Source: Halichondria panicea
Taxonomy: Eukaryota > Porifera > Demospongiae > Suberitida > Halichondriidae
DNA: 64,000 nucleotides
Assembly: GCF_963675165.1 (NCBI RefSeq)
Contig: NC_087391.1
Location: forward strand, 5,173,626-5,237,625
Reading direction: 5' to 3'
The first letter of the stretch is position 1. Every line of letters starts with the position of its first letter. Of the stretch, positions 7,001 through 37,000 are shown in pieces. Position numbers and translations under genes: made by a program. The notes under the pieces are model-generated. The model was not told the origin of the DNA and did no database searches. It saw only the letters and a list, made by a program, of their open reading frames with translations.

Positions 7001-10000
7001 TACATTTCATTCCTCTCAGTACCAACTTACCAACATCTTTGACGTCTGTTCCTATGTTTCTCGGAGGTAGTACTCGTGGGGCGTGAGGGGTGGAGGTTCT
7101 TATCTTAGTGAAGGTTTGTCTGGCTGTGTGGGGTGATGTGGGCGGAGTCTCTTGGCCAGGGGGGAGGGGGAGTCCCAGTTCAGAGAGTCGGCTGTGCATT
7201 GCCTAAATAGGATAGAATTTAAACAGCTGCATGCATGTAAAGTGTACTTATGAAGAAAATAAATAGCCGGAAAATTGCATGTTTGCTATGTGAAAGTTGC
7301 TAGGATTGGTCGGGGAAACTATAGTCCGAAAACAATCACATCTATACTGTTCACTACGGCATGCATGAGCACTGGCTTACTTGTGTTAACTTTTTGGACA
7401 GCCTCCACACAAAAATACAGCTGCAATGGAGAGGGATTGTAAGTGTTGTGATTGTGAACAGCTGTCTCTTACCTGTCTCCAGATACAGAGTAGAGGAAGC
7501 GACAGTCCTGAGAGAACCTCACTTGGGTCACCACCTCTGTGTGTGTGTGTGTGGGGGGGGAGTATCAGTGAGTGAGTGTGTGTGTGTGTGTGTGTGGGGG
7601 GGGAGTATCAGTGAGTGAGTGTGTGTGTGTGTGTGTGTGTGGGGGAGTATCAGTGAGTGAGTGTGTGTGTGTGTGTGTGGGGGGGGGGGGAGTATCAGTG
7701 AGTGAGTGTGTGTGTGTGTGTGTGGGGGGGGGAGTATCAGTGAGTGAGTGAGTGTGTGTGTTTGAGGGTATACAAAAAAGTATCATTTGTGTGGGAGAAA
7801 TAGTGTCAACTGTTCGCGTTACTAGCTCAAACGGAATGCTCACTTATATAATCTTTTTACAAAGGTCGGCATCTGATGGTATTTTGAATCTAACAGTCAG
7901 GTATAGGTAAAGGTTTTAATAGAGGTAAATTAATTAACAGATTTGTGAGGTAACATAGGCTATAAGTGTTCGTGATATGAATTATCATGGTAATAATAAA
8001 CGCTTGACATACTGATGGTGATTATAATATAATTATGAAAGTGACCTAACTAATCATGAGGGCACATTTGGTTGATCTGACCTTGAGAATCAGATATGAT
8101 GGGTTAAAGATCTTTGATGGCGCCAACTCTCCCCATATCAACCAATGTGTCACAAAAAACAAAAGGAAAAGTTTCACACATGACGCTGTATTTACTTAGT
8201 GAAAGTCAAATAGATCTAGTTCTGTATATTATGTTAATACTTATGGTGGGGGATAATGGTAAAAGTGTGTGGGTTGATACCTGTATCCGGGTCTCAACCG
8301 CATGCATGTCATAAGTCGATCATTATCTTAAAAGTTTTGGCATCCATTTGGATCAAATTTGTATACCACAAGTGATGTTTTAGTAAATTGGGGTCAAGAT
8401 TGCAGATTACATATAGTAAAGTACAGTAACTTACTTTATTTTTCTTCTGGGGTATCAGGCACTTTCTACCATGTGTTTTCTAGCTGATGTTCATGTGAGC
8501 TATGACTGAGTATGCATGGGCAGGATTTGATTGGTTGTTGCTCTTTGTATTTGATTGTGGTTGAGATGGTGTTAAATTGAGTGTAGTACTGGGATGTGAT
8601 GAGCATACTATGTGCTACATCTTAAAATATGGCAGTTGGCTCGTTCTGCCCTTTCCAAATGATTAATGATATATCCCTTTTTTTATCCTATATATTTGGG
8701 TAGCTTCAATAATTATTGTGAGTTATTCACTTGGGGCCATGTTGAATAATTATTGTAAGCTATGTTTACATTTGAAGTCATGTTGAAATATAGGACTTAT
8801 GCTGTAATACAGGTCATTCTAATTCTGACCTTAAGGAGGCTTAAACTATAACATTAAAGCTGTGTTGTTTGGGCCAAGCTTTGTGGTTATATTGTAGTTG
8901 ATACGTGGTTCTTCTATGTGGCAAGCACAGGACAATCATTACCTCTAATTTTGGTTCAATTAGCTTCAGGCATTAGTCAAAATAAATAGATAGTAGTGTG
9001 TGTGTGTGTGTGTGTGTGTGTGTGTGTGTGTGTGTGTGTGTGGTGTGTGTGTGTGTGCATGGGCAGATACATGCATAGTGTGTGTGTGTGTGTGTGTGTG
9101 TGTGTGTGTGTGGTGTGTGTGTTGGGGGGGTATCAATGTAAATTTTGGGCATGGAGAATCCTCAGCTAAGAAAATTATAAGTATGTACTAGGCCACAACA
9201 AGATAGGGAATGGACCGTGAAAACGACAAAAACACGTCAACTATTAGTAGGGAAACTTTATGTACAATTAGAGCTGAATCAAATTGTTACATACATAGTG
9301 CTTCTGAAAACCAACTCTACCGGTAGCTAGTGAGTAGCTAGTGATAATCTATAACAAAGACAGAAGAATTGAATCAAAAAGATGAACAAGAATCGTCAGA
9401 TCAGAAAACCTGGGGGAGAGTATTTGGAAGTGATAGCTGAATCCAATCAGATAGATGGAGGAAGCAAAGAACGACCACTGAGTGCTGTTAGCGATGAGTA
9501 TGTGGAGATACACGATGACATACGTTCTCATGCTAGCCTCGAACCACTCCATACCTCTCCCGGTGAAAGCTACGATGGATATCTGAAGAATCCAAAGGAG
9601 CAAGGCCACAGAGTGACAATCCAAGACAACTGTGCCTACAATGCAACCGTACAGATAAGAGAGGAGACAGCAATTTCAGGAAGAGGGAGAGTGATACAGT
9701 CTAATAGTCTGTACGAAGAGATCCCTGACAGAGCAGCTGTTGAGAGTGGTATTAGCCAGGCCACAGTTAGTCAGCCAAGAGTGGACGCAGAGGGTCAAAA
9801 AGAGAGCAAAAAGATCATTTCACCAGGAGAAGCACTCTGGAGTTTCTGGCAAGGCAAAGCAGAGATTGCTATCAGAATCACCAACCTAGCTGTAAGCTAT
9901 ACATGTATTACTTTATACGCCTTCAACTATACACACACACACACACACACACAGCTGGGGGCGGTAATTTTTCTGCTGCTATTCGCAATCATTGTAAATG

Positions 10001-34000: not shown

Positions 34001-37000
34001 ATTTTTCTAACCCTTTTGCTTCTTGGAGTCATCATGGAAATAGCACACCTCTACATCAGGACATGCAGGAGAAGAACAACCAAATGTTTCCTCGCGTGGG
34101 TACGTATAGGATGATTGGTCGATACATAATGTCGGTACATTATATGCATGCAGTACATAGATTTACCAAAGAAAGATAATAATTATGTATATGCATGCAC
34201 TGTATTCCATCACACACCATACGTCATAATAGCTATTACACTGCTTATGCAAACTCTATACACCAACACACACCACACACACAGGACATTATATACTCTT
34301 GCGTAACGATCTTCTTCTCACTGGTGTTCCTCGGAGCATCCATTGGGCTAACTGTACTATGGTCTACAATCAATCATCTGGTGGAGGGATACATCTTTTT
34401 GATCATAATCACGGCAAGTTAATCAACGAGAGCCTTTTATATACAGGCCTCATAATAATTATGTATATATAATTATATGCACTGTATTCCATCATAAATA
34501 TCATTTCCTATAAGCATGCAAATAATTATTGTACATTAATTAGCTCACTCCTGATTCAAACTTCATACACACACACACATGCACAGCTGGCTAGGACACA
34601 TTAATAATCAGTTATAGCTTTCTGGTATTACACATTAATAATCAAGCTATATATACACAGTAAAAACACATAATAATGTTATATGGGATGCATCATCATA
34701 TTTTAGTGTTAAAATGACAGAATTCGAATCTGTTTTTACTGTGTAGCTTTCTGGTATTACACATCATTTATGATTCCTATATATGCAGGTGCTGTGCTTC
34801 ACACTTGCAGTCCTGTACCTGTTCAGGGCTTGCTGGATTATAGCGATCATTAAGATCAAATGAGATCAAAGAAAAGGATCCCCCCCCCCCCCCCCAATAA
34901 CTTAACATTGTAGCAATAACACTACCTTCTTGAACACATGCACACACTTAATTAATGGTTCTAATAGGTACTGTGCTTCATCTTCACGGCTCTGTACATG
35001 CTCAGGGTTTGCTGGATTAGGGCAACCATTAGTATGAAGTGGGATTCAAGAATGGAAATATAAACCAACAAGGAAAAGGAAAAGTAGTAACAAACATCCT
35101 AAAACATATTAACCTGAATTAGTGATTACGATTAATTTTAACGCACACACACATTGCACTATAATATCTTATAACACCTACGTAAGAACGATGTGGATCA
35201 TAATTATAAGGGTGGGCGTGGCTATCGCTAAGCAACCCCATGAACTCTGACCTGAGTGTCCGGCGAGCTTGGCAACACATTCCCCCGAGAACACGTCAAA
35301 GATGAGTACGGACTTGTCAGCACAACTGCTCGCTGCCAACAACCCTGAGGGGTCCAGTGACACCTGTAGGGATATGAGGGCATCACTAACATTCAACACA
35401 CGCTATGTTTCGTACATGTGTTGTACATGTGTAGACGCTATAAACATGAACATATACTACAGAGCGGCACAAATAAATTAATTGAATTACACCTGGTCTG
35501 TACATGTATACGTATACTACATAGTTATTAAATAATAGTTAGACACTGTTTTGGAGGTGTCTATGGGATTTAGAAGCCCAAAAGCACTGATTTAGTATCC
35601 CGAGCGTAACGAGGGTACTAAAGTGGCTGAGGGCTTCTAAATCACATGGACACCGACAAAACAGTGTCTAGCTCATTTAGATACTAGTGCGCATGCGCAA
35701 ACCGCTTGACTACAATACAATTACTGGACAACGGAATACTAGGTATACTAAGTAAATTTGCAGGTATACTAAGTCCCATAGTATACCTGCTCTGAGGCAC
35801 TTTTCCCATGTACGTACTTCCCATGTAGATCTTATCAACTAGTGTCTAATTACTAATAAATTTTATTTTATTTAAGATGTCGGTACCTTCAACAGACCCC
35901 CCTCTGAGTCTGTGGGAGGTGCTTTTATCACAGTTTTCTGTTTGCCTCCGTTCACCAAATAAAACCTGCAAGAAATTTATGTAGGATAAAATAATTTGTT
36001 TATTGTTCTATGACCTTTGACCTCACCTGAGCACTCTGTCCTGGCCAGCTGTCACTACGTGCTTCCCAAGGACGTCTATATCCATATCAAATATAGTGGC
36101 CTTGGATACGACGTTGTTGGTTCGGTGGAACATACATACAGACTCTCCCTGCGACTGTAAACAAAACAGAACACACTTATACAGCTGCACACACACCTAA
36201 GTAATTACGTGCTGATTATTAATGCTGAGAAATACGAAAAATTGCGCTTTAATTGTTAAAGCCCGGGGAATGGGCATACTATGAAGGCATACAAACACTC
36301 CCCTTGGCCACTCGGCAGTTGTGACATAATTCTACAACCATAGGATTTGTATTTCTATATTTAGTACATGTAGGGAGGTTGTTTTAGTGAATAGCGCTCC
36401 TTAGTTTTGCAATTATTATGTGGTACGTAGCACATTATTTTTCCGGTGCCATTTTTTCGTTGTGTATCACTCACCTTCTCCATAGAGTGGAAGATGAGTG
36501 ATTTGTCAGCCCCGGAGCTGAGTAGGTGGAGTGTTCCGTCACTGCCCCTCACAAACCTCACAGATGTCACAGCTGCCGAGTGGTCCGAGAGCGTCTGTAT
36601 GGCTTCATAAGATTCCCCGCCCCCTCCGAGTGAGAACACGTGCATCATCCGATCACGACTAGCAGAGGATAGGAATTGTTGGTCTGTGTGTGTGGTGTGT
36701 GTGGGTGGGTGAGGTGAGGGAGTGTATGTGTGTGTGGGGTAGGGGGGTGCCTACATAATTATTACACATGCATTGCCTATACTTAAAACTTGTTGCTTAG
36801 ATACATATATGTACATGAATACACTCACTGTCGATGACAGGAGAGTAGGACAGAGACAGTATGTCCAGGTCGTGGGCAATCTCTCTGTACACCAAATCCA
36901 GGAACTGGAGGTCATACACACTACATAAGGAGAGAGAGGGGGGGAAGATAGTGATGACATAAGGAGAGAGAGGGGGGGGGGAAGATAGTGATGACATAAT

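Follow-up and report, generated by a model that had tools for sequence, protein, structure and literature searches.

The general plan of MARVEL proteins (synaptogyrin, MAL and occludin) is four membrane helices in an N-in/C-in orientation. The adaptors that carry immunoreceptor tyrosine-based activation motifs (ITAMs) and the engulfment receptor Draper pass the membrane once. MS4A2, the beta chain of FcepsilonRI, has four helices and both ends cytoplasmic; a survey of human four-helix proteins counts it as a receptor and gives its family four helices with the N-terminus inside (PMC4815072). Here, we describe a tandem array of genes for four-helix membrane proteins in the sponge Halichondria panicea, located in a stretch of 64,000 nucleotides (contig C15, 5173626-5237625; the window, whose positions are used below unless a contig is named). 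The array consists of ten copies of one gene, A to J, on the plus strand between 9382 and 35063, and is confirmed as a real and mostly intact family. We give about even odds (roughly 0.5) to the reading that this gene-converting local family supplies phosphotyrosine scaffolds or signalling co-receptors.

Copies, gene structure and exchange within the array

Eight of the window copies (A, B, D, E, G, H, I and J) are intact, each giving an intact spliced frame of four exons, as an earlier note on this DNA had proposed, while two (C and F) are broken. The note had counted nine copies on one plan. The four-exon plan indeed holds in A, B, C, D, E, G, H, I and J, but C is damaged, and F brings the window total to ten. 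A search of the 131 Mb genome (39 contigs) with a 20-residue block around CSFWQ returned 11 places, nine of them inside the window; gene A was not among these and was located separately by its WSFWQ at 9838. Some 63-73 kb beyond the window end, the minus strand of C15 carries two more intact copies, K (from 5310193 to about 5307813) and L (from 5307520 to about 5300718), with about 4.7 kb separating exons 2 and 3 of L. The family total is at least 12 loci, ten of them intact. In a genome-wide protein search in which only the best candidates were scored, family pieces were confined to C15 save one weak match on contig C5.

The divergent gene A (9382..10560; 332 residues) has exons at 9382-9891, 9955-10179, 10243-10392 and 10447-10560 including the stop, and its introns of 63, 63 and 54 nt are all multiples of three. 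Gene B (10815..13047; 366 residues), likewise divergent, is made up of 10815-11429, 11639-11836, 12248-12418 and 12931-13047, again including the stop. It is followed by its broken relative C (13242..15839), whose exon 3 (15033-15202) is a base too short for a whole number of codons and then runs into stops. Gene D (16952..18650; 322 residues) comprises 16952-17509, 17679-17885, 18071-18199 and 18576-18650, and gene E (20434..22119; 334 residues) 20434-21009, 21112-21318, 21707-21832 and 22024-22119. Copy F (22386..22908) is an exon 1 alone, its frame broken by four TGA and one TAA; exons 2 to 4 were not found ahead of gene G among the matches listed for the interval between them. The remaining genes are G (23933..26811; 349 residues; 23933-24550, 25363-25572, 26306-26431, 26716-26811), H (28546..29967; 301 residues; 28546-29040, 29193-29399, 29555-29683, 29893-29967), I (30823..32912; 326 residues; 30823-31377, 31873-32076, 32512-32637, 32817-32912) and J (33229..35063; 301 residues; 33229-33723, 33893-34099, 34285-34413, 34789-34863). 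J has a possible alternative last exon of the E/I type at 34968-35063, which matches E, and likewise I, at 94 of 96 bases.

Spliced models were built for the nine four-exon copies of the window and rest on splice signals and selection. Exon 1 encodes the N-terminal tail and the block that precedes helix 1, its final codons already lying inside that helix; exon 2 continues from helix 1 as far as the inner loop, helix 3 and outer loop 2 fall in exon 3, and helix 4 and the C-tail in exon 4. All acceptors end in AG, and the introns of intact copies are in phase 0. The donor of intron 3 is GC (GCAAGT) rather than GT in D, G, H, I and J (18200, 26432, 29684, 32638 and 34414) and also in L, while A, B, C, E and K use GT. 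Among the eight closer copies (D, E, G, H, I, J, K and L), the ratio of non-synonymous to synonymous change (dN/dS) lies at 0.33-0.93 for the tail in 28 of 28 pairs. Of 27 pairs compared over the membrane part, 25 stay below 1, the exceptions being D/H (1.14) and H/J (1.09), with D/J left out as its dS is zero. No clear contrast in selection separates the two parts: the tail ratio is the lower one in 16 of the 27 pairs and the higher one in 11. Given the shared splice sites, the ten unbroken frames and dN/dS values mostly under 1, we regard the array as coding.

At the protein level, D, E, G, H, I and J are 62-93% identical to one another, whereas A and B reach 25-36% with the others (A 25-29% with the other seven intact window proteins). 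A D-like tract in J covers the membrane-domain exons, introns included (33653..34880, plus strand, ends approximate). Over 13 blocks of about 100 columns it is 97-100% identical to D, and the membrane parts of D and J differ by no synonymous and one non-synonymous change. Upstream of the tract, six blocks of J are nearer H in three cases and marginally nearer D in two, with one tie. Just ahead of the start codon, the flank of J is clearly H-like (77/83 against H, 54/84 against D), and in the tail J and H are both missing about 15 residues that are present in D. J thus reads as a mosaic, its tract probably a gene conversion or a segmental copy of D; an assembly error is a conceivable source of the near-identity. 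The extent of the D-like tract matches that of the membrane exons, so it seems that tails have been recombined with membrane parts. Every one of the 15 pairs that set D, H or J against E, G, I, K or L shows a higher dN and a higher dS for the membrane part than for the tail (dN 0.25-0.31 against 0.09-0.20), as if the tails had been exchanged more recently than the membrane parts. The tandem array of the earlier note is borne out, in the form of duplicated copies with sequence exchange between them.

Two further features were seen around B and C. The repeats of these two genes (families D11-D15) are 90-99% identical, and a palindromic element resembling a miniature inverted-repeat transposable element (GAGGCCAAATTAAAGTTTCT ... 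AGAAACTTTAATTTGGCCTC) sits in intron 2 of B (12135-12199) and of C (14920-14984). Directly after gene C, a CA repeat runs uninterrupted for 558 bases (15898-16455).

Membrane part and relation to known families

Hydropathy reveals four hydrophobic segments in all ten intact proteins. Their lysine and arginine counts are 0-2 in outer loop 1, 2-6 in the inner loop, 0-1 in outer loop 2 and 3-8 in the C-tail; by the positive-inside rule, this distribution predicts an N-in/C-in topology. The four helices and the basic C-tail of the earlier note are thus upheld. Measured between hydropathy windows, outer loop 1 has 10-30 and outer loop 2 has 11-24 residues, so short that almost no ectodomain is left; outer loop 2 of gene B carries the N-glycosylation sequons NDT and NQS. 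In each of the ten proteins, helix 2 has a glutamate and helix 4 an arginine or lysine at its inner end, inside the hydropathy windows or only slightly beyond them; these two positions could possibly pair. The inner loop is clearly rich in cysteine and arginine in D to L (RTCRRRTTKC type), as had been claimed for all copies, but weakly so in A and B. The block before helix 1 is less constant than the note's "invariant CSFWQ(G/D)K-E-A-RI": A reads WSFWQ, D and J QDKAKVA, and K and L CRTWQ, so that only W, Q, K/R, R and I are kept in all ten proteins.

Pfam scans covered eight window open reading frames, the eight spliced window proteins and four membrane parts, with K and L outside this set; the reporting limit was an E-value of 10, although HMMER filters discard most matches above 0.1. 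They gave chance-level matches at most, the best being DUF7775 (E 0.029) and Presenilin (0.057). A family profile run against PDB sequences reached E 0.5 at best, a chance match to chain 3 of an NADH oxidoreductase. Prokaryote genomes and viral contigs, both non-animal collections, were scanned once each and yielded no relative; the 65 and 27 stretches that matched the pattern were not confirmed. No such family is described in the titles and opening lines of abstracts of a literature set that leaves out most subscription journals and bioRxiv. By these sequence comparisons, the family is an orphan, matching no known family in Pfam or among PDB sequences, and the earlier view of it as unrecognised stands.

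Named four-helix families were also considered individually. Tetraspanins (PF00335) were rejected on the grounds of an outer loop 2 of 11-24 residues, the absence of CCG in ten of ten proteins and the lack of a Pfam match; Claudin/PMP22 (PF00822, PF13903), MARVEL (PF01284) and CD20 (PF04103) were unreported for the eight spliced proteins and four membrane parts. Genome-wide, PF04103 matched three places, the best with E 0.0314 on contig C1, and none in the window.

Tyrosine-rich tails and candidate partners

The N-terminal tails of the ten intact proteins are 147-188 residues long, with 21-38 acidic residues and 6-12 tyrosines. A long tail rich in tyrosine motifs, as first described, is therefore found in ten of ten; the count of 6-9 requires correction to 6-12 tyrosines. 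Motifs were compared with 2000 shuffles per tail. N-x-A-Y occurs at one to three sites in every tail (p 0.018 or less each), and NxxY is likewise present in all ten. N-P-x-Y is found in five and is rare among shuffles save in E (p 0.064). Y[ED][ED]I occurs in eight tails, all except B and K (p 0.033 or less). ITAM spacing, YxxL/I-x(6-8)-YxxL/I, is seen in four (p 0.010-0.021), as YEAI-x6-YEVL in B, YEEI-x8-YEEI in D, YDEI-x8-YEEI in I and YDDI-x8-YEEI in J. The inhibitory counterpart of the ITAM (ITIM), YxN and YxxM did not exceed shuffles in these tails. Since the copies are paralogues, the p-values amount to few independent observations rather than ten. The signalling motifs that the earlier note had placed in the tails are nevertheless supported: where they occur, N-x-A-Y, Y[ED][ED]I and ITAM spacing exceed shuffled tails. 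As in ITAM adaptors and Draper-type engulfment receptors, paired Y-x-x-[LI] is present, here in B, D, I and J and beside N-x-A-Y in the same tails; in contrast to them, six of ten copies lack the spacing.

N-P-x-Y sites bind PTB domains, and phosphorylated Y-E-E-I binds SH2 domains of the Src type. Candidate readers for the tail motifs are present in the genome, which holds nine PTB matches and 71 SH2 matches, some of the latter being intron-split pieces of one domain. On contig C3 (8404600-8406400, minus strand; L070:1-1045), an SH2 domain is followed by a tyrosine phosphatase domain, with a second SH2 match just upstream; this SHP-like gene is a plausible tail reader. The introns of the genome and its SH2, PTB, tyrosine phosphatase, synaptogyrin-like and collagen-type domains point to an animal. 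Two papers report Syk kinases in sponges (PMC2820527, PMC9486129).

Gene structure, topology from hydropathy and charge, motifs, duplication with exchange, and the presence of SH2 and PTB domains were computed; from there we infer phosphorylation, binding and pairing. We postulate that a tyrosine kinase, most likely of the Src type in view of the Y-E-E-I motifs, phosphorylates the N-tail. The N-P-A-Y and N-x-A-Y sites would then recruit PTB-domain adaptors, and the paired Y-E-E-I sites would recruit SH2 proteins. The membrane part, with its tiny outer loops, helix 2 glutamate and helix 4 arginine or lysine, may pair with other membrane proteins rather than bind large ligands itself. Candidate partners are single-pass COLFI/fibrinogen-like proteins with N-x-A-Y in their own N-tails.

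A DNA pattern for the motif [EQ]NxAYN[IV] matches the genome 34 times, as against two matches for a control read backwards. Nine belong to the present family (two in K, one in the broken F), 17 lie on C5, four on C1 and four elsewhere. Of the 25 outside places, nine were inspected; six of these, four on C5 and two on C1, fall within plausible coding frames. One of them, L060 on C5 (L060:2337-3887, minus strand), is the weak C5 match of the protein search and is a frame of 516 residues with an N-tail, one hydrophobic segment and a cysteine-containing ectodomain. Its N-tail carries four N-x-A-Y sites (PNVAYN, ENIAYN, QNIAYN and KNPAYN). Similar frames with N-x-A-Y in the N-tail are L061 (ENTAYN), L064 (LNTAYN) and L069 (ENTAYN), which lie together with L060 at 1.27-1.61 Mb of C5, and L062 on contig C9 (HNSAYG); L064 has a long stalk built of near-identical repeats. 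We take the ectodomains of these proteins to resemble fibrinogen-like domains. L062 matches COLFI weakly (E 4.1e-05, below the cut-off), while L060 has no COLFI match at E up to 1, its best being Endomucin (0.006, below the cut-off). The N-tail motif is common, through descent or convergence, to these proteins and the four-helix family, and would be cytoplasmic in the former if they are type II as drawn; unlike the four-helix proteins, they have one hydrophobic segment and a large ectodomain. The presence of one motif in two unrelated membrane families hints at a shared, undescribed signalling system.

Further frames with related motifs were noted on C1, at 10422855 (L068, QNEAYNV) and 7772890 (L063, ENDAYNI). 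L068 terminates in ...FQQNEAYNVVTKRPTIAEADSDYEQVD followed by a stop and is probably the C-terminal tail of another protein.

Several observations weigh against a phosphotyrosine scaffold with such partners. The [EQ]NxAYN[IV] motif shared across the families is short, and three of the nine inspected outside places (L065, L066 and L067) look non-coding. The weak C5 match of the tail, at L060, has a whole-tail similarity of E 2.11, which is not significant. ITAM spacing is missing from A, E, G, H, K and L. Structure was predicted for the read-through of gene A only, including its three translated introns, and gave a predicted local distance difference test score (pLDDT) of 49.7 and a predicted template modelling score (pTM) of 0.23, values too low for a usable model.

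Other known plans could account for parts of this picture. Extremely diverged members of MS4A/CD20, with tyrosine motifs on the N-tail and not, as in FcepsilonRI-beta, on the C-tail, would explain the like topology, the TKC of the inner loop where CD20 has RKC, and the paired cytoplasmic YEE[LI]...Y..[LI], which MS4A2 carries as YEEL-x6-YSEL. Yet no homology is detectable: hhalign gave 0.1% for the family against CD20 (0.2% with CD20 reversed) and 0.1% against CD20 plus two FcepsilonRI-beta sequences (0.1% reversed), while FcepsilonRI-beta against CD20, the positive control, reached 93.4%. In twelve pairwise shuffle comparisons, two stand apart from the shuffles, both with H. One is against FcepsilonRI-beta (score 55, matched by 4 of 300 shuffles), although the other seven of the eight tests against CD20 and FcepsilonRI-beta were equalled by 68-228 of 300. 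We consider membership improbable, and the earlier note's CD20-like topology without a sequence match is what was found. The second is against a synaptogyrin-like protein (score 47, matched by 10 of 300; A, B and E by 102-290) and bears on a rather doubtful reading as tetraspans of membrane traffic or junctions, in which the helices would shape or sort membrane and the N-P-x-Y-like sites would act as endocytic sorting signals. Four helices, short loops and the N-in/C-in orientation agree with the MARVEL plan, N-P-x-Y and NxxY occur at the frequencies given above, and an aspartate starts helix 3 in both (LLVDIV in the synaptogyrin-like exon, WDI here). On the other side, hhalign against the genome's own synaptogyrin-like exons gave 0.7% (0.2% reversed), and endocytic signals leave the Y[ED][ED]I pairs unexplained. 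This synaptogyrin-like gene (L009, C17:614128) gives the genome's sole MARVEL match at E 0.001, which falls short of the Pfam cut-off.

The earlier note had proposed recognition receptors or scaffolds. Direct recognition receptors of an allorecognition or immune type, with ligand-binding outer loops diversified through gene conversion, would suit a tandem array with sequence exchange and the higher membrane dN of the 15 pairs. However, dS is likewise higher there, which marks the membrane parts as older, not faster, and with loops of about 10-30 residues and dN/dS mostly below 1 we find this hard to credit. That the copies are non-functional as drawn, as leftovers or wrongly joined exons of an array in decay, would be in keeping with the two broken window copies, but ten intact four-exon frames, conserved splice sites and purifying selection make it very improbable. 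The scaffold or co-receptor fits better, because the tyrosine-rich tail is under purifying selection, the outer surface is minimal and SH2 matches are many.

Neighbourhood and meaning

The window also holds ordinary neighbours: a WD40 fragment of the MABP1/WDR62 type (36361-36750, minus strand), exons with C1, PH and kinase matches that we take to be protein kinase D-like (45541-51893, plus strand) and a TPT-type transporter (56887-57603, plus strand). Orphan tandem families are frequent in animal genomes. What is unusual here, and testable, is the apparent tyrosine vocabulary in common with a second membrane family, which goes beyond the earlier note.

By analogy, a private phosphotyrosine vocabulary (N-x-A-Y-N and Y-E-E-I pairs) on unrelated families might mark a multi-chain recognition system, in which a ligand-binding chain works with an amplifying four-helix chain. 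It would be similar to FcepsilonRI with MS4A2 but of independent origin, and gene conversion would exchange the membrane cassettes beneath the tails; we advance this as a speculative and distinctly unlikely extension. The four-helix family yields concrete peptides and candidate partners with which it can be tested. Vertebrate immunity offers the best-known multi-chain receptors that signal through tyrosine motifs of a separate chain in the membrane. If true, an independent version in a probably early-branching animal would mean that this design arises repeatedly.

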